Assembly: GCA_024413635.1 (NCBI GenBank)
Contig: JAKSTT010000006.1
Location: forward strand, 1 to 34,649
Length of the DNA stretch: 34,649 nt
Direction of reading: 5' to 3'
From: Treponemataceae bacterium
GTDB lineage: Bacteria; Spirochaetota; Spirochaetia; Treponematales; Treponemataceae
Position numbers and translations under genes: made by a program. Positions 19,432 through 33,017 of this stretch are shown here, one piece after another; positions within the stretch are counted from its first letter, which is position 1, and every line of letters begins with the position of its first letter. Below the pieces are notes generated by a model. The model saw only the letters and a list, made by a program, of their open reading frames with translations, was not told the origin of the DNA and made no database searches.

Positions 19432-21228
19432 TTATTCGATAACTGCTTTAATGCGGCGTACGCCGGCAGAAGAAGACTGTTCCTTTACAATCTTGAACTT
19501 ACCGATAACACCGGTGTGTTCAACGTGTGGTCCACCGCAAACTTCCTTGCTGAACCAGTTGTCTTTGGTACCGATGGTATATACTTTTACGTCTTCGCCG
19601 TATTTGTTGGTAAAGAGGGCGCGTGCCCCTTCTGCCTTTGCTTTTTCAAGGCTCATAACTTCCATGGTTACCGGAAGGTCAGCCTGAATCTGCTGGTTAA
19701 CGATTTCTTCTGCCTGAGCAATTTCTTCTTTTGTCATAGGACGTTCAAAAGTAAAGTCAAAGCGCATGCGTTCATCGTTGATGTTTGAACCTTTCTGTGC
19801 AACCTGTGGTCCCAGGATGTTAACCAGGGCCTGCTGCAGCAGGTGGGTAGCAGTGTGGTACTTGGTAGCGGTTTCGCTCTGTTCAGCGATACCACCTTTA
19901 GCTTTTCCGGCATCCAGGGTTTTTGAAGCTTCCTGGTGTTTGCGTTCTGCTTCCTTGAAGCCTTCAATATCTACGGTAAATCCGTTTTCTGCACCCAGTT
20001 CCTGAGTCAGTTCCAGTGGGAAACCGAAGGTATCATACAGACGGAATGCAACTTTACCGCTGATTTCTTTTTTCGGGTTCTTCATCAGGTTAGGCAGCAG
20101 CTTCTGGAATTCCAGTTCACCCTTGCGCAGGGTATCGCGGAATTTGTGCTCTTCTGCAGTCAGTTCCTTGTATACTTTTTCTGCGTTTTCTTCCAGTTCA
20201 GGATAAGCAATCTTGAAGTTTGCAACTACGGTTTCTGCAACAGGAGCCAGGAAGTCTTTATCGATACCCAGTTTCATTCCGTGGCGTACTGCACGGCGGA
20301 TCAGGCGGCGGAGAACGTAGCCTGCACCAACATTAGACGGGGTAACACCTTTCTGGTCACCCAGAATGAATACTGATGAGCGGCTGTGGTCAGCAATGAT
20401 GCGTACTGAAGCATCTTTTGCTTCGTCGGTGCCGTATTTGTATCCGGAAAGTTCTTCAATTTTGGCAATGATAGGCTGGAAAACTTCAGTCAGGTATACG
20501 CTGTTTTTGCCCTGCAGGATACAGTTGGTGCGTTCAAGACCCATACCGGTATCAACGTTCTGTTTAGGCAGTTTTACCAGAGTCTTTTCATCAACGCGGT
20601 TGTATTCCATGAATACGTTGTTCCAGATTTCCATCCAGTTTTTGCTGTCGGTTCCCTTGTTTGAACCAACTGGTGGAACACCTTCCCCAACCCAGTAGAA
20701 GATTTCAGTATCAGGACCGCAGGGACCGGTAGGACCTGCTGCCCACCAGTTGTCTTCTTTTGGCAGGTAAGCGATTTTATCTTCAGGCATGCCGTTTTCT
20801 TTCCAGTATCCGGCAGCTTCTTCGTCACGTGGAGCTGATTCGTCACCGGCAAATACGGTAACGGAAATCATTTTTGGATCCAGACCAAGCCATTCTTTGC
20901 TGGTCAGGAATTCGTAGCTGAATGCGATTGATTCTTTCTTGAAGTAGTCACCCAGTGACCAGTTACCCAGCATTTCAAAACAGGTAAGGTGTGAAGGATC
21001 TCCTACTTCATCAATATCGCCGGTACGTACACATTTCTGGTAGTCAGTAAGACGGGTTCCGGCTGGATGTTTTTCACCCAGCAGATAGGGTACCAGTGGG
21101 TGCATACCTGCGGTGGTAAAGAGAACGGATGGGTCATTTTCAGGAATCAGAGACTGTCCTGAAATCTCAGCATGATTTTTACTCTTGAAAAAAGCGATGT
21201 ATTTGGAACGTAATTCGTTTGCGGTCAT
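19432..21228 (-). CDS. alaS: Alanyl-tRNA synthetase, short form lacking C-Ala
   Basis: Class II synthetase charging tRNA-Ala, 598 residues against about 870 in most bacteria. The catalytic core (about 1-240) opens with the AlaRS motif ELRSKYIAFFKSKNH and has LFTTAGMHPLVPYLLG; the tRNA-recognition helical part follows (about 250-440). The editing domain is present with both metal motifs, HTATH (H458, H462) and CGGPH (C564, H568), so mischarged Ser/Gly can still be hydrolysed. The protein ends soon after, without the C-terminal dimerisation/tRNA-elbow domain. That shortened form is, as I recall, also seen in T. pallidum. No Shine-Dalgarno precedes the ATG; a well-formed promoter ends eight bases upstream, so the leader should be only one or two bases. 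Confidence 0.95.
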   Translation of the reverse strand: MTANELRSKYIAFFKSKNHAEISGQSLIPENDPSVLFTTAGMHPLVPYLLGEKHPAGTRLTDYQKCVRTGDIDEVGDPSHLTCFEMLGNWSLGDYFKKESIAFSYEFLTSKEWLGLDPKMISVTVFAGDESAPRDEEAAGYWKENGMPEDKIAYLPKEDNWWAAGPTGPCGPDTEIFYWVGEGVPPVGSNKGTDSKNWMEIWNNVFMEYNRVDEKTLVKLPKQNVDTGMGLERTNCILQGKNSVYLTEVFQPIIAKIEELSGYKYGTDEAKDASVRIIADHSRSSVFILGDQKGVTPSNVGAGYVLRRLIRRAVRHGMKLGIDKDFLAPVAETVVANFKIAYPELEENAEKVYKELTAEEHKFRDTLRKGELEFQKLLPNLMKNPKKEISGKVAFRLYDTFGFPLELTQELGAENGFTVDIEGFKEAERKHQEASKTLDAGKAKGGIAEQSETATKYHTATHLLQQALVNILGPQVAQKGSNINDERMRFDFTFERPMTKEEIAQAEEIVNQQIQADLPVTMEVMSLEKAKAEGARALFTNKYGEDVKVYTIGTKDNWFSKEVCGGPHVEHTGVIGKFKIVKEQSSSAGVRRIKAVIE

Positions 21229-26091: not shown

Positions 26092-28653
26092 ATGAAGAAA
26101 GTTCTTCATACTGTACTGAGCGTACTGATGTGCGCTGTACTGCTTCTTTCAGTTGTATCATGCGGCGGTAAAAAACTGACCGATGGTACCTATACTGGAA
26201 GTGCAGATGGTCATCATGGTCCTGTAGCTGTTGAAGTTACCGTATCAGGTGGCAAAATTGCTGCAGTAAAAGTTACCGACCACAACGAAACTGCCGGTAT
26301 TTCTGATGCTGCTATTGCAGACATTCCTGCTGCAATCGTAAAGGCTAACTCAGCCAATGTTGATATCGTATCAGGTGCAACCCACACTTCTGATGCAATC
26401 ATTAATGCAGTAAAAGCTGCTCTGGCTACTGCCGGTGCTTCTGCTGACAATGGTAAAAAAGCTGCACACAAAAATGTAGCTGTTACCTACAAAGCAGGAA
26501 CCTATGAAGGAACCGCTCAGGGTATGAACGGTCCTGTTACCCTGGCTGTAACTTTCAGCGACAAAGCTATTACCGCTATTGAAGTTAAAGCTTCTAAAGA
26601 AACCGCTCACGTAGGTGATCCTGCATTTGACATTATGTTTGCTGATGCAATCGCTGCCAACGGTTCAGGTGTAGATATCGTTTCCGGTGCAACCTTTACT
26701 TCTATTGCTGTTCGCAATGCACTGACCGATGCTGCTAAAAAAGCAAACGCTTCTGACCTTGACGGATTCAAGAAGAACAAGATCGTACATGCTGCACAGG
26801 CTGACATCAATGAAACCTATGATGTAGTAATCGTAGGTGCCGGTGGTGCTGGTATCGGTGCTGCAGCTCAGGCTGCCCAGAACGGTCTTTCTGTTCTGGT
26901 TATTGAAAAGAACGCAGAAATCGGTGGTAACACTGTAGTTTCTGGTGGACAGTTCCAGTCAGCAATGCCTTACCTGTGTTGGGAAGCTGACCGTCCGGAT
27001 GCTACCACCGGTGTATATGACTTTGATGGTAAAGAATACAACAAAGTTAAAGCTGCCAACGGTGATATCGCTGTACTGAAAACCATCCTGAACTGGAGCG
27101 AAAAACCATTTGATGGTACCGGTTCAAAAGAATGGTTCGAAGCTGGTGACATTGACCGTCTTTCAACCCATGGTGTTCATCAGGAATACCTGCCTGTTCT
27201 GAAAGAACTGAAAAACGAAATCAAAGCTTACCTGGCTTGGGCTGAACCAAAACTGAAAGCAGGTACCGATGAAAACAAACTGACTCTGTTCTCTACCGTT
27301 AACCTGCATATCTTCCAGACCTACTACGGCGGACTCCGTCCTAATGCAGACCACACTGCATGGATTTACGGTGACTATGACCTGGTTTGCCAGTTCATCC
27401 GCGACGGTCAGGACCTGAAACCATGGCTCGAAGATCAGGGTTCACAGTTCATTCCAGACCAGCAGCCAACTATCGTAGGTGCTCTGTGGCAGCGTGAAAA
27501 CGACTACGTTAAAGGTGCTCTTGATACCGATGGCGATGGTGTAATGGAATCTGCTCAGTGGGCTGCTTACTTTGCTCCTACCCGCAAGACCCTGCTGAAA
27601 ACTTCACCAACCGCTTCTAAAAACAAGATCATGACCCGTACCACTGCTGACGAACTGATCGTTGAAAACGGTCGCGTTACCGGTGTTAAGGCTACCATGT
27701 ACGACGGAACCAAAGTTACCGCTAAAGCTACCAAAGGTGTTATCCTTTCTACCGGTGGTTTTGCTGCTAACATCGACCTGGTTCGCAAAACCAACGAATA
27801 CTGGAAAGCTTCTGCAATTACCGAAAAAACCCAGACCACCAACCGTTCTTCACTGCAGGGTGATGGTATCACTCTGGGACAGAAAGCTGGTGCTGGTACT
27901 ACCGGTATGAACTTTACCCAGCTGATGCCTATCTCTTGGATCAACAACGGACAGCTGGCATTCGGTGGCGGTAACTACGCTATCTACCTGAACCCAACCA
28001 CTGGTAAACGCTTTGTTAACGAAACCGGTGAACGTGACGTTCTGTCACTGGGTGAATTCAACAACGGTATTGAATACCGCGGATTCATGGGTACTGTAAT
28101 TGAAATTGCAAACAGTGCTCAGGCTATTCCTGGTCCATATCCTTATGGAACTCCAGCTACCCCTGAAACCTGGGAAGCTGACGTTGATCCACATCAGTGG
28201 ACCCGCACCGTTGACCAGTTTGCAGCTCTGTTCAAAGAACTGGGTCTGCCAACCAACGCTGACGATGTAATTGCTGAAATCAAAGCTTACGATATGGCTC
28301 TGATGACCGGAAAAGAAAGCTCAATGGCTGTTAACAAAACCGGTTGGACCCGCCTTATCGGTAATGCAGAAAAAGATGCTAACGGTCACTACATTCCTGA
28401 AACCTACACTCTGGATGGTGTAAAACTGAAGATCCGCCTCCTGGCTCCTTCTACTCACCACACCATGGGTGGTCTGACTGTTGATATTGACCGTCACGTT
28501 CTGGATGCAAGCGGTAAAGCTATCCCAGGTCTGTACGCAGCTGGTGAAGTTACCGGTGGTATCCACGGTGGTAACCGCCTTGGTGGTAACGCAATCGTAG
28601 AAATCTTCGTTTCTGGACGTACTGCTGCCAACGCAATCACTAAAGACAACTAA
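26092..28653 (+). CDS. Lipoprotein flavin reductase: two FMN-binding domains plus FAD (fumarate/urocanate reductase-like) domain
   Basis: An exported 853-residue protein. The signal peptide ends in VVSC (C24), a lipobox. Two FMN-binding domains follow (about 30-112 and 133-213), each with the ApbE-type attachment motif DIVSGAT (T97, T201), where FMN is joined covalently to Thr. The rest is a fumarate reductase/succinate dehydrogenase-type FAD domain: VGAGGAGIGAAAQ (about 248-260), dinucleotide acid E272, substrate-site HTMGG (H790) and GGIHGGNRLGGNA (R829). It should pass electrons from membrane donors through FMN to FAD and reduce an unsaturated organic acid outside the cytoplasm as anaerobic respiration; fumarate, urocanate or an acrylate are candidates, not separable here. 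Codon use differs from neighbours (Ala GCT/GCA, Gly GGT instead of GCC/GGC), suggesting very high expression. AGGAG lies six bases from ATG. Confidence 0.9.
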   Translation: MKKVLHTVLSVLMCAVLLLSVVSCGGKKLTDGTYTGSADGHHGPVAVEVTVSGGKIAAVKVTDHNETAGISDAAIADIPAAIVKANSANVDIVSGATHTSDAIINAVKAALATAGASADNGKKAAHKNVAVTYKAGTYEGTAQGMNGPVTLAVTFSDKAITAIEVKASKETAHVGDPAFDIMFADAIAANGSGVDIVSGATFTSIAVRNALTDAAKKANASDLDGFKKNKIVHAAQADINETYDVVIVGAGGAGIGAAAQAAQNGLSVLVIEKNAEIGGNTVVSGGQFQSAMPYLCWEADRPDATTGVYDFDGKEYNKVKAANGDIAVLKTILNWSEKPFDGTGSKEWFEAGDIDRLSTHGVHQEYLPVLKELKNEIKAYLAWAEPKLKAGTDENKLTLFSTVNLHIFQTYYGGLRPNADHTAWIYGDYDLVCQFIRDGQDLKPWLEDQGSQFIPDQQPTIVGALWQRENDYVKGALDTDGDGVMESAQWAAYFAPTRKTLLKTSPTASKNKIMTRTTADELIVENGRVTGVKATMYDGTKVTAKATKGVILSTGGFAANIDLVRKTNEYWKASAITEKTQTTNRSSLQGDGITLGQKAGAGTTGMNFTQLMPISWINNGQLAFGGGNYAIYLNPTTGKRFVNETGERDVLSLGEFNNGIEYRGFMGTVIEIANSAQAIPGPYPYGTPATPETWEADVDPHQWTRTVDQFAALFKELGLPTNADDVIAEIKAYDMALMTGKESSMAVNKTGWTRLIGNAEKDANGHYIPETYTLDGVKLKIRLLAPSTHHTMGGLTVDIDRHVLDASGKAIPGLYAAGEVTGGIHGGNRLGGNAIVEIFVSGRTAANAITKDN

Positions 28654-28674
28654 TCTCAGTCATACTGAGTAATG

Positions 28675-28710
28675 AATCCCGCAGTTCAAACGAGCTGCGG
28701 GATTTTTTTT
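28675..28710 (+). terminator. Rho-independent terminator of the flavin reductase
   Basis: AATCCCGCAG (28675-28684) pairs with CTGCGGGATT (28695-28704), followed by T to 28710. A small hairpin CTCAGT-CAT-ACTGAG (28655-28669) precedes it, straight after the stop. Confidence 0.95.
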
Positions 28711-28734
28711 GACACATACTGTTAACGTGTCAAA
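28708..28734. repeat. Inverted repeat TTTGACAC-N11-GTGTCAAA
   Basis: Perfect 8-bp arms at 28708-28715 and 28727-28734 with an 11-base spacer that contains the palindrome GTTAAC. No T run follows on plus. It resembles a transcription factor operator; the TTTTGACACA half also occurs in the second groES repeat (15647). Confidence 0.5.
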
Positions 28735-28736
28735 CC

Positions 28737-28802
28737 TGCATAAGTATGCATAAAATTGTGAAAATATTATATTTTTATGCAAAATATACTTGCATTTATG
28801 CA
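28737..28802 (+). promoter_or_regulatory. TGCATAA operator array around a TATACT promoter
   Basis: TGCATAA occurs at 28737 and 28747 (ten bases apart), and its complement TTATGCA at 28775 and 28796. TGCATAAAA (28747-28755) and TTTTATGCA (28773-28781) are perfect 9-bp inverted arms. A TATACT -10 (28785-28790) lies between the third and fourth copies, so a bound protein would control it. No good -35 is visible, which suggests an activator. The predicted start is about 28797. Confidence 0.55.
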
Positions 28803-28913
28803 TGTTTCTATGTAAAGTAAAGTTACTGAGTAATTGTACGCAACCTCCTCTTACTCAAGACCGATTTTAAAACGAAGCGCTTTTATCCTCCTTTCGGCGC
28901 TTCGTTTTTTTTT
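28798..28913 (+). ncRNA. Candidate small RNA (about 115 nt) with two anti-Shine-Dalgarno segments
   Basis: The segment runs from the predicted start to a strong terminator. GAGTAA (28828-28833) pairs with TTACTC (28851-28856); inside, TTG-TACG-CAA forms a mini-hairpin and leaves CCTCCTC (28844-28850) unpaired. The terminator loop (28881-28896) holds a second CCTCCT (28887-28892). Exposed C-rich loops that pair with Shine-Dalgarno sites are a hallmark of some bacterial trans-acting RNAs. Alternatively it is a terminated leader of ktrB, whose start lies 23 bases past the T run. No open reading frame longer than five codons is present. Confidence 0.5.
28869..28913 (+). terminator. Strong terminator directly upstream of ktrB
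   Basis: AAAACGAAGCGC (28869-28880) and GCGCTTCGTTTT (28897-28908) form 12 perfect pairs around a 16-base loop, with nine T (28905-28913). Since no protein gene lies between the previous terminator and this one, it must end a non-coding transcript or attenuate ktrB. Confidence 0.92.
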
Positions 28914-28935: not shown

Positions 28936-30318
28936 ATGCGTTACACGGGAAAAATGAAAACACCGGTTATCGGTCCGGTTTCACAACTCTTTCTTTATTT
29001 TGCTACCCTGGCGATTCTTGGTTCCGTGGCACTTTCCCTGCCACTCTGCTACAGCAACAGCCAGCTTCCACCCTATCTGGACCGGCTGTTTACTGCAGTC
29101 AGTGCCCTGTGCGTTACCGGACTCAGCACCGTCAATGTTGAAATATTTTCCATCACCGGCCTCATTGTCCTTATGGTTTTGATTGAGTCAGGCGGTCTGG
29201 GGCTTATCAGTTTCTTTATTTTCTATCTGGTTCTGCCTCGGAAAAAAGTAACCCTGGCCAACCGGAAATTTGCCCGCAGTTTTTTCGTCAGTGGCGTAGA
29301 AGCCGATCCGGTAAAAATCATCCGGGATATTCTCATTTACAGCGGCTTTTTCCAGCTGTGTGGTGCCCTGATATTAGGTGCAATCCTGTATACCCATAAC
29401 TATGACTACCCCTGGTTTACCGGGCTGTTTACGGCCGTTTCAGCCTTCTGTAATGCCGGTTTTACTCCCTGGGGAACCAGTCTGATCAGTGTAAATCATA
29501 ATGCCGGTTATCTGGTTACCGTAATGGTGCTGATCCTGTTGGGTGGCCTGGGATTCACCGTTATGCAGGATGTAAACGGCTGGCTGTATTCAAGGGTGCG
29601 TCATAAGCAGATGCGCCGTATCCGCCTGAGCCTGCACAGTAAAATCGTACTCTGTGCCACGGTAGTACTGGTATTTGTTCCCGGCGTTCTATTCCTCATG
29701 ATTGAATGGAATCATGCATTCAGTGACCTGCCTCTTGGCGCAAAAGTTTCCAATGCCCTGTTCCAGAGCGTTACCTGCCGTACTGCCGGTTTTGAAGCAG
29801 TCAGCCAGTCCCGTTTTACCAATGCATCTACGCTCCTCAGTGAACTCCTGATGCTCATTGGTGGAAATCCGGGGTCCATGGCAGGCGGCATCAAGACCAC
29901 AACCGTGTTCATTGCCCTCTGCACTGCGTTCAGGACAGAAGAAGATACCGGAGCCCTGTCGATTTTCCGCCGGGACATTCCCTTTGCTGATACTGAAAAA
30001 GCACTTTCCGTCATCGTAAAGGCTGCCTTATTCCTGCTTGTCATGACCCTCATCATTTTCATGGTAGAACAGAGTCAGCTGGAATCAGGCGTGTTCAGCA
30101 CTACGGATCTGATTTTTGAAACCATTTCGGCCCTGGGAACCACCGGGTTAAGCCGGGGTATTACGGCGGACCTGCTGCCGGTTACCAAAATTCTGCTGAT
30201 TCTAACCATGTATGCAGGACGTACCGGTGTCATAACCCTGACCATGCGGGTTGCATTTGTTGAACAGAAAATAAAGGCAAGTACGGAATTCCCTCAGGAA
30301 TCAGTACTGATTGGATAA
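28936..30318 (+). CDS. ktrB: Potassium uptake channel subunit, KtrB/TrkH family
   Basis: The membrane subunit of a Ktr-type K+ (or Na+-coupled K+) uptake system, 460 residues with eight core helices in four M1-P-M2 repeats. The four filter loops are SALCVTGLS, SAFCNAGFT, SVTCRTAGF and SALGTTGLS, each with the conserved Gly, and GGNPGSMAGGIKTTT marks the intramembrane gating-loop region of the third repeat. Length and pairing with a single-RCK partner favour Ktr over Trk. No Shine-Dalgarno precedes ATG 28936; ATG 28954 (after GGGAAAA) is an alternative start six codons inside. It sits just behind a strong terminator, so it has its own weak promoter or is controlled by readthrough. ktrA follows nine bases downstream. 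Confidence 0.9.
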   Translation: MRYTGKMKTPVIGPVSQLFLYFATLAILGSVALSLPLCYSNSQLPPYLDRLFTAVSALCVTGLSTVNVEIFSITGLIVLMVLIESGGLGLISFFIFYLVLPRKKVTLANRKFARSFFVSGVEADPVKIIRDILIYSGFFQLCGALILGAILYTHNYDYPWFTGLFTAVSAFCNAGFTPWGTSLISVNHNAGYLVTVMVLILLGGLGFTVMQDVNGWLYSRVRHKQMRRIRLSLHSKIVLCATVVLVFVPGVLFLMIEWNHAFSDLPLGAKVSNALFQSVTCRTAGFEAVSQSRFTNASTLLSELLMLIGGNPGSMAGGIKTTTVFIALCTAFRTEEDTGALSIFRRDIPFADTEKALSVIVKAALFLLVMTLIIFMVEQSQLESGVFSTTDLIFETISALGTTGLSRGITADLLPVTKILLILTMYAGRTGVITLTMRVAFVEQKIKASTEFPQESVLIG

Positions 30319-30327
30319 GGAGATACT

Positions 30328-31077
30328 ATGATTACGATTGCAGTTATCGGTCTTGGCGCGTTTGGTATTCGCGTCATTGAAGAACTGGCAGAAGAAAATG
30401 TTGAAGTAGTTATTGTCGATAAAAACCGCGAGATGGTGGAAAAATACAAGAATCTGGTACGCGACGCCTATATTACGGATGCCATCACCAATGAAATGAT
30501 CGATAAGATTGTTCCCCATGATGTGGCAGCCGTTGTCATCGATTTTGGATCTGACGTTGAAGCATCGATTCTGCTGACCAACCATCTGCACAAAACCGGA
30601 ATCCAGAAAATCATCGTAAAGGCAAAGACCACTGAACATGGTGAAATCCTGAAAATGGTGGGTGCCACCTCTGTGGTATATCCGGATCATGATGCCGCTC
30701 AGCGCATCGTTCCGCAGCTTCTGTCATCTGAACTGTTTTCTTTCCTGACCGTTTCTCCACTGTTTGCACTGGCAGAAGTAGCCGTCAGTGTTGATGACAT
30801 CGGAAAAACCCTGGCTGCCGTAAACTTCCGCCAGACCTATAAGCTGAATGTTATTGCCTACCGTCAGAGCGAAGATCAGGATTTTGAATTCATTGACAGC
30901 GGTGATTTTGTATTTGTTGAAGGTATGCGCCTGCTGATTGCCGGAAAGGAAAAGGACATCAATACCTATGTCCGTGATACGTCAATCCTGTCACGGTTTG
31001 AAGGTAAGGCGTCAAAACTGGGGAAAAAGTTCCAGCGGAGACTGGCTGCCGTAGCAAATACGCCCAAAAGCCTTTAA
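30328..31077 (+). CDS. ktrA: Potassium uptake regulatory subunit, KtrA (RCK) protein
   Basis: Cytosolic RCK protein of 249 residues. An N-terminal Rossmann fold with GLGAFGIRV (8-16) and acidic VDKNREM binds nucleotides (NAD/ATP family ligands); the C-terminal RCK_C-like part (about 140-225) may bind a second ligand. It would form the octameric ring gating KtrB. AAGGAG lies seven bases from ATG, and only nine bases separate it from the ktrB stop, so the pair is an operon. A basic tail of about 25 residues follows the RCK_C region. The stop codon overlaps that of the convergent diguanylate cyclase gene. Confidence 0.9.
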   Translation: MITIAVIGLGAFGIRVIEELAEENVEVVIVDKNREMVEKYKNLVRDAYITDAITNEMIDKIVPHDVAAVVIDFGSDVEASILLTNHLHKTGIQKIIVKAKTTEHGEILKMVGATSVVYPDHDAAQRIVPQLLSSELFSFLTVSPLFALAEVAVSVDDIGKTLAAVNFRQTYKLNVIAYRQSEDQDFEFIDSGDFVFVEGMRLLIAGKEKDINTYVRDTSILSRFEGKASKLGKKFQRRLAAVANTPKSL

Positions 31078-33017
31078 GAGCGGCGCTGGCGTTTTACTTC
31101 ATACTGGCGGGCATCAGCAATTTTCAGAAGATTGATCAGGTCTGACTGCTCGCTGGTAAAGGGTGCCGTTCCAAGACTGATAGAAAGATTGAAAGGCTCT
31201 CCTGACGTTCTGTTCCATTCCTCGCACATTTCAACCAGCCGTGCCTGGATTTTCGGAAACGATGATTCATCAAGACCTGCGGCAACAATACCAAATTCAT
31301 CACCACCCAACCGTCCGATGATATCGGAGTTCCGGAACAGTTTTTTCAGCATCCGGGCTTCTGAAATGATGGCCCGGTCGCCGGCTTCATGACCGTAGGT
31401 GTCGTTGATTTTTTTCAGGTTGTCCATATCACCAAACACAACCAGACCGGTTTTCTGCAGCTGCACAGAAAGATTGATCTGCTGCTGTCCCATCATCAGG
31501 AATCCCCGCCGGTTCAGAATGTCGGTCATTTCATCAGTATATGAAATACGGTTCAGGTTATCGTTGGTTTCTTCCAGAAGACGGTTTTTTTCCAGTTCCA
31601 GACTGAATACTTTTGATGAGGATACGATGGTTGCTATGATGATACCCAGCATGGAATAAATGGTGGGATCATAGCTGCCCTGACGGTACACAAAGTACCC
31701 GAACTGTTCCGTGCCGTGATACAGCGGTACAACGCTCAGTTTTCCCTGATGTGACAGAATGGTTGGGGGTATGATGGCGGTATGGGGATTGAAGGATCTT
31801 AAGGCTCCGTGACCACGGAAAACGTTATCGGTATCAAAGCCGGTTTCAGCATCATAGGCAGTAAAGATGGAAATTTCCGGCGGCAGGTGAAATTCGGTAT
31901 ATTCACTGACCGTTATGGGTTCTGCGTACAGACAGATGGCGGCTCCGCTGATGTCAAAGGAGCGCAGGTCCCGGTTGATGCAGGTTTTCAATTCTTCCAG
32001 GCTCATGATGTTCTGGGTGTTTTTCTGATATGAAATAATCTGCAGCAGTTCCGGTTTTTTTGCATACCATTCTGTTACACCTTTGATGGTACTGTTGTCG
32101 ATAATGTCGCCGGTGGACGTCTGGGCCTGCAGGGTAGGGTCAGTCAGGGCGACACAGCCGCAGCTCTGGCGGAAGACGGCAATGGAATCAATGAATGTTT
32201 CCTGGGGAATGGTTTTACGGTCAATCAGGTCATTGAGCAGTTTTGCCGCTTCATACCCCTGGGTATAAATCCGCTGGTCTACGCTGGAAAGGGTCGGGCG
32301 TGAAAAGGCGGTCCGTTCTACGTTGTCAAAACCGGTTATGCAGAAGTTTGAAAGCCGGTATTTATGCTCGTTGATGTAGTCGATAAGGACGTAGGCCATG
32401 GTGTCGTTCAGGCAGACAAAGGAGTCATACTTGTTCAGGTCATGGGTTTTTGCCCAGTGTGTCAGGGCATCCATGGAACTGCGGTAGGTAAAGTTTCCCT
32501 TGATGATATCGTCATCTGAAAAGGTAATGCCGTATTCTTTGACACAGTCCAGGAATACCTTGTTCCGTTCCAGAATTTCCTGGCTTACCCCCATGCAGCT
32601 GAATAAGGCAGGCCTTTTGCAGTGGTGTTTTTCAAACAGATGGGAAATCTGTGCCTTCAGGCCGGGAGCAGGATTTGAAAGGACTGAATTGATGTCCGGA
32701 AATGACGCCCCGATGCTGATCAGCGGCAGTTTCCCGAAGGATTGCAGCAGGGTATGCAGGTCGTTGTAGGAAGCATGGTTTCCGATGGTTGCAGAGGCTA
32801 CCAGAAGCCCGTCCAATGTCTGGGTGGAAATCAGGGAAGAAATGGCATTGTTCTGGTACGCGTAGGCGTCACTGGTGTATCCCAGTTCCTCTACTGGAAA
32901 CTCAAAGAGCGTACAGTTGTTGTTTTCTGTAAATGCCAGGATGCCTTCTTCCAGTTCCAGGGCATATTCTGACCCGTAATCAAAAAGAAGCAGTCCTATC
33001 TTCCGAGACGTATCCAT
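31074..33017 (-). CDS. Diguanylate cyclase with cytoplasmic LacI-type sensor domain
   Basis: A 647-residue protein without signal peptide or membrane helix. Residues 5-290 form a periplasmic-binding-protein fold of the LacI/GalR ligand domain type (GLLVAS, ITGFDNVE, RPTLSSVDQ and the closing FRQSCGC), but there is no DNA-binding helix-turn-helix. A GAF-like middle (about 310-480) and a short coiled coil (about 485-510) lead to a GGDEF domain with intact GGDEF (571-575) and an I-site RNSD (562-565). It should make c-di-GMP in response to a small molecule, possibly a sugar or purine, with product inhibition. TATACT lies eight bases before ATG and no Shine-Dalgarno is present. Its stop overlaps that of ktrA by three to four bases. 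Confidence 0.88.
   Translation of the reverse strand: MDTSRKIGLLLFDYGSEYALELEEGILAFTENNNCTLFEFPVEELGYTSDAYAYQNNAISSLISTQTLDGLLVASATIGNHASYNDLHTLLQSFGKLPLISIGASFPDINSVLSNPAPGLKAQISHLFEKHHCKRPALFSCMGVSQEILERNKVFLDCVKEYGITFSDDDIIKGNFTYRSSMDALTHWAKTHDLNKYDSFVCLNDTMAYVLIDYINEHKYRLSNFCITGFDNVERTAFSRPTLSSVDQRIYTQGYEAAKLLNDLIDRKTIPQETFIDSIAVFRQSCGCVALTDPTLQAQTSTGDIIDNSTIKGVTEWYAKKPELLQIISYQKNTQNIMSLEELKTCINRDLRSFDISGAAICLYAEPITVSEYTEFHLPPEISIFTAYDAETGFDTDNVFRGHGALRSFNPHTAIIPPTILSHQGKLSVVPLYHGTEQFGYFVYRQGSYDPTIYSMLGIIIATIVSSSKVFSLELEKNRLLEETNDNLNRISYTDEMTDILNRRGFLMMGQQQINLSVQLQKTGLVVFGDMDNLKKINDTYGHEAGDRAIISEARMLKKLFRNSDIIGRLGGDEFGIVAAGLDESSFPKIQARLVEMCEEWNRTSGEPFNLSISLGTAPFTSEQSDLINLLKIADARQYEVKRQRRS

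Follow-up and report, generated by a model that had tools for sequence, protein, structure and literature searches.

We found that the interval between a flavocytochrome-c-like gene and the potassium transporter gene ktrB of a treponeme ends in an intrinsic terminator whose hairpin belongs to a family widespread among treponemes, in which a CCUCCUU loop stays invariant on a stem that covaries. The interval lies in the window, i.e., the whole stretch of 34,649 nucleotides that was analysed, within an assembly of 2.44 Mb in 220 contigs. In our judgement, positions 28826-28913 probably encode a stand-alone small RNA that would act in trans against Shine-Dalgarno (SD) sites, with the loop of its terminator as the seed.

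The locus and its predicted fold

The terminator of the flavocytochrome gene marks the boundary between this gene and the RNA unit, and is followed along the window by an A+T-rich stretch, a 5' hairpin, a strong intrinsic terminator and ktrB (Table 1). The latter probably starts at the ATG at 28954, which has GGGA upstream, rather than at the first ATG (28936), and we do not think that it forms one element with the RNA unit. In congeners, the flavocytochrome gene precedes other genes and ktrB has no such leader; a first contig scan with KtrB returned no relative. The flavocytochrome protein has its highest-identity relatives in ruminant-gut Treponema and Treponemataceae assemblies. These relatives identify the genome as that of a treponeme (Spirochaetota), so that the Gram-positive setting proposed in an earlier note on this DNA was mistaken. 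Elsewhere in the window, we observed a short alanyl-tRNA-synthetase-like protein of 598 aa (19432-21228, minus strand) with tRNA-synt_2c and tRNA_SAD domains, from which the usual C-terminal part is apparently missing, and a GGDEF protein with a periplasmic sugar-binding-type domain (31074-33017, minus strand) that adjoins ktrA.

The structural description in the earlier note, of a unit without a gene between two terminators, with a hairpin exposing CCTCCTC and a 12-bp terminator with CCTCCT in its loop, was borne out in all its parts. The upstream terminator has 14 pairs, and between the two terminators there is no convincing gene on either strand and no convincing peptide ORF. The first CCUCC (28844-28848), in the 5' hairpin, is predicted to be unpaired with a probability of 0.93-0.96 for its first four bases and 0.58 for the last. 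The stem of the terminator has 12-13 bp (at about 28869-28908), and its loop holds AUCCUCCUUU, in which the CCUCC at 28887-28891 is unpaired with a predicted probability of 1.0. Compared with dinucleotide shuffles, the fold of the segment has a z-score of -3.65, with 1 of 200 shuffles as good. The genome has four CCTCCT-N20..50-CCTCCT pairs and its reversed control three: the paired words alone are thus not remarkable; the hairpin bearing them is.

Table 1. Features of the RNA unit and its surroundings in the window.
Feature	Positions	Strand	Basis or detail
Flavocytochrome-c-like gene	26092-28653		Pfam/NCBIfam; upstream of the RNA unit
Intrinsic terminator of the flavocytochrome-c-like gene	28674..28710	+	14-pair stem (28674-28705) and T tail
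A+T-rich upstream stretch that contains five TGCAT/ATGCA words	28737..28802	.	Words at 28737, 28746, 28777, 28791, 28798
TATACT box	28785..28790	+	Sequence; no -35 partner
Weak alternative promoter TTGCAT-17-TAAAGT	28791..28819	+	Sequence, compared with the closest relative
Predicted small RNA	28826..28913	+	Fold; start set by the TAAAGT box, 3' end by the terminator
5' hairpin predicted to expose the first CCUCC (ACCUCCUC)	28827..28857	+	Fold prediction
Conserved terminator hairpin with anti-SD loop UUUUAUCCUCCUUUC and U tract	28867..28913	+	R2 covariance model
TrkH/KtrB-type K+ transporter gene (ktrB)	28954..30318	+	Downstream of the RNA unit

A hairpin family with an invariant loop

A DNA search across 274 genomes of the bacterial family matched only the 3' hairpin, and this in a single genome (G138, 84% over 50 nt, E 4.2e-8); the 5' half of the window RNA had no relative in any genome searched. 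In G138, a good promoter (TTGACC-17-TAAAGT) is followed by a short RNA that ends in a hairpin with the loop AUUCAUCCUCCUUA, and the differences between its stem and that of the window are paired changes. A subsequent pattern search revealed further units of the same build. Every match to the pattern (ATCCTCCTT..T6) was checked for an enclosing stem; the pattern alone was discarded as evidence for the family, its matches being mostly reverse-strand SD sites or chance. We defined the family by a 13-bp terminator stem, UCCUCCUU in the 3' part of a loop of 14-16 nt, and a U tract that follows.

Two models were used to describe the spread of the family, and their weak reverse-strand matches on the same hairpins were removed. 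The first (R1), built on seven sequences including the window, gave matches at E <= 0.01 in 161 of the 274 genomes; it matched 87 of the 128 assemblies of better quality and every one of the six congeners, and the copy number was usually close to one per genome. Its members were found through the loop, and loop conservation among them thus proves little. The second (R2) is a covariance model of 48 members from which the window was left out. Each of the 13 pairs of its stem has double changes (126 cells versus 30 in shuffles), a count made on an alignment fitted to the structure, which favours covariation. In the window, R2 recovered the terminator hairpin with 57.3 bits (E 3.2e-11), the next-best match having 22.3 bits, and this hairpin has the stem, loop and U tract that define the family. 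In the whole genome, R2 found exactly two sites, the window copy being the better one (E 1.0e-9 per genome) and the other a copy linked to pfs (G000:C197:2315-2358). Among 394 genomes sampled across the order, 189 had a match, counting the second family of the order and taking the weakest matches as scored. A phage collection gave no match.

The association with pfs, which encodes the MTA/SAH nucleosidase, provided a sample independent of the loop. Of 20 loci with family units, 18 have pfs divergent upstream, and luxS or birA often comes after it. We took 30 pfs loci by protein alone, with no regard to the RNA. In 19 of them, a divergent unit has a terminator at its end, and the loop carries TCCTCCTT in all 19, even where the stem is unrelated in sequence (e.g., in G015). 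Of the other 11 loci, one (G049) has a similar terminator that lacks CCTCC, and most of the remaining ones are in genomes with a family match elsewhere. The earlier note had proposed a covariance search in relatives, and had regarded loss of the CCUCC segments alongside a conserved ktrB leader as evidence against a small RNA. The search gave a conserved, covarying stem with an invariant CCUCCUU loop, and the opposite pattern: relatives keep the loop but not the ktrB leader.

The canonical copy of the genome that holds the window (L213, L187) is linked to pfs and luxS and has a strong promoter and a 5' AGCAGCAACAA stretch, whose ARN-like repeats might suit an RNA chaperone. Other units differ in number and build. 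One treponeme genus (G020, with L306, L307, L227 and L228, and related g15 genomes) has at least three paralogous units per genome, two of which share an ACACACA..GATACACA 5' stretch. Units of the second family of the order (L308-L314) have TGTAAC at about 75 nt before the loop and their first CCUCC near the likely 5' end.

The window copy and its alternative explanations

The window copy is not divergent from pfs; it lies between the flavocytochrome gene and ktrB, and for lack of this linkage we filed it as a paralogue rather than as the canonical gene. By sequence comparison, it is a second, non-syntenic copy of the treponeme-wide family. The window copy has another CCUCC upstream of the conserved loop, as do 9 of 19 other units away from pfs and none of 19 canonical units. 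These nine represent at least three separate lineages by sequence, and several of them form one clade, so they are not nine independent events. The sequence of the 5' hairpin is not conserved in relatives, yet the second upstream CCUCC recurs in these other non-pfs members.

Relatives in the family have promoters of the TTGACA-17-TATAAT type just upstream of their units, which is why we regard them as transcription units. The window copy lacks the strong sigma-70-type promoter and the 5' AGCAGCAA stretch of the canonical copies, having only TTGCAT (28791)-17-TAAAGT (28814). This pair matches the consensus at 7 of 12 positions by eye and occupies the same position as TTGACC-17-TAAAGT in the closest relative (L142/G138), which suggests a weak alternative promoter. 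Since it is weak, transcription of the window copy is something that we infer. The TATACT box that had been proposed as the promoter of the unit does exist; a -35 hexamer is missing at 16-18 nt upstream of it, and a consensus promoter scan did not list it. The proposed length of about 115 nt would stand if transcription started near 28797 (116 nt), but with the TAAAGT box the start would be near 28826 and the RNA would have about 88 nt. Upstream, the five TGCAT/ATGCA words fall within about 65 bp and are partly palindromic, in a region of low G+C (0.26 for 28710-28825 versus 0.48 for the whole window), and could possibly form an operator or an UP-like element. Several relatives share a conserved TGTAAC at about 75 nt from the loop on its 5' side, and the window has TGTAAA (28811-28816), also 75 nt upstream.

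The weakness of this promoter, and the position of a non-syntenic copy after another terminator, would also suit a copied or acquired hairpin that serves only to stop flavocytochrome read-through into ktrB, with no separate RNA; some terminators with CCTCC loops are indeed found directly 3' of genes elsewhere (L129, L141). We consider such a backup function unlikely: the flavocytochrome terminator is already strong, the copy still matches the family in loop, stem length and U tract (as the 57.3 bits indicate), and two exposed CCUCC segments would be superfluous. Rather less probable is a decoy or sponge, whose loop would mimic the 3' tail of 16S rRNA (CCUCCUUU) or soak up SD-like RNA or protein. 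CCUCCUU is the anti-SD word of the 16S rRNA 3' end, and its invariance in a widespread family with usually near one copy per genome is in line with such a role; however, there is no partner to name, a single RNA of 88 nt would need high abundance, and the closest characterised analogues act on mRNA. Finally, the ktrB attenuator or leader put forward as an alternative in the earlier note, controlled, e.g., by K+ or c-di-AMP, is very improbable: ktrB starts on the same strand about 40 nt after the terminator, a strong separate ktrB promoter is not evident, and same-strand genes closely follow two other copies (L324, a second copy in G003, and L306 in G020), but no antiterminator competes with the terminator (-5.0 versus -22.1 kcal/mol), no Rfam riboswitch matches at the gathering threshold, the ktrB genes of relatives have no such element upstream, the non-pfs copies examined are all followed by different genes, and the ktrB ribosome-binding site pairs poorly with the loops (-5.5 kcal/mol).

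Proposed function and relation to known RNAs

Under the preferred reading, of a stand-alone RNA acting in trans, the intrinsic terminator would double as the seed, its AUCCUCCUUU loop being kept open on a stable and freely varying stem. The loop would pair with the strong extended SD sites of a few mRNAs (AAGGAGGA followed by an A-rich spacer), which would block 30S binding and thereby translation, and the 5' hairpin would offer a second, possibly redundant, CCUCC seed. The trans-acting repressor of the earlier note is retained in part. The evidence supports a discrete small RNA whose unpaired CCUCC is conserved. Its anti-SD nature has support from the family as a whole and is the best-supported function, which for the window RNA we infer from predicted exposure and complementarity.

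Candidate targets come from the full complement of the loop, AAGGAGGANAAA, which has four sites in the genome: two are the antisense of the two RNA loops, a third coincides with the ribosome-binding site of a gene that starts with TTG and encodes an SBP_bac_1 solute-binding protein, and the fourth lies at no ribosome-binding site. Genes downstream of this complement in congeners include SBP_bac_1, SBP_bac_8, CstA and desulfoferrodoxin genes. The three solute-binding proteins with this motif are not orthologous and the motif is not enriched over the reversed control, and the target set is therefore a lead rather than a proof. SD sites in this genome are mostly shorter, with GGAGG in 1 of 36 long reading frames in a rough survey. 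Among the genes of the window, dnaE, one of the targets suggested earlier, has the best predicted duplex (-22.3 kcal/mol), and the flavocytochrome gene the second (-15.1 kcal/mol); these are raw energies and not evidence of regulation. An ABC solute-binding lipoprotein would be among the candidate targets, and dnaE more weakly so.

The csRNAs of streptococci, CyaR and RepG bind SD or G-rich leader sites through loops or stretches rich in C and U. RepG uses its terminator loop for this binding (PMC8295292), and RsaE and FsrA are UCCC small RNAs with C/U-rich SD-binding stretches (PMC4132741). All of these differ from the window RNA in sequence, structure and phylum, and none matches the window at its Rfam gathering score. 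More similar are the alpha-r14/cuckoo RNAs of Rhizobiales (NfeR1, SmelA075/SmelA099), which carry the anti-SD word in hairpin loops on highly variable stems, have redundant copies of the motif, and block ribosome-binding sites, with tested targets that include mRNAs of ABC periplasmic components (PMC3927594, PMC10746234). The treponeme family shares with them the anti-SD loop on a stem of variable sequence. However, they have three or four hairpins each with CCUCCUCCC, whereas the treponeme family has one conserved CCUCCUU terminator loop, with a second CCUCC in some non-pfs copies only; the window has two hairpins, with CCUCCUC and CCUCCUU. They also belong to a different phylum, and their sequence relation to the family was checked through Rfam only.

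LhrC of Listeria has CU-rich motifs in the loops of a 5' hairpin and of the terminator, which are redundant in binding the SD sites of targets (PMC4132741). Its model (RF00616) aligned in full to 28818-28912 of the window, but with 29.4 bits versus a gathering score of 110, and LhrC differs by its UCCC words, a third single-stranded motif and its occurrence in Firmicutes. This score, like those of NsiR1, RybB and others on the upstream terminator, was taken as chance or resemblance, and no Rfam 15 family matched the window at its gathering threshold. As for regulation linked to LuxS and pfs, the canonical copy adjoins pfs divergently, often with luxS, whereas the window copy is elsewhere; the literature searched contained no known small RNA at the pfs/luxS locus.

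Very few small RNAs are on record for Spirochaetes, with six in one survey (PMC9029176). No conserved small RNA of treponemes was described in the literature that we searched, and this literature, which covered few subscription journals, and Rfam contained no earlier description of a treponeme RNA with a CCUCCUU terminator. Provisionally, we therefore regard the family as previously uncatalogued. Our assessment leans slightly towards a small RNA family that spans an order of spirochaetes and uses its terminator as the seed, with an invariant anti-SD loop on a drifting stem, a core copy at pfs-luxS, and spreading paralogues that have a second seed. If this is true, treponemes would have a tractable riboregulator, made of a single hairpin with an invariant anti-SD loop, found in the majority of treponeme genomes and anchored beside pfs and luxS. 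If the solute-binding protein targets hold, it would link the state of the methyl cycle with nutrient uptake.
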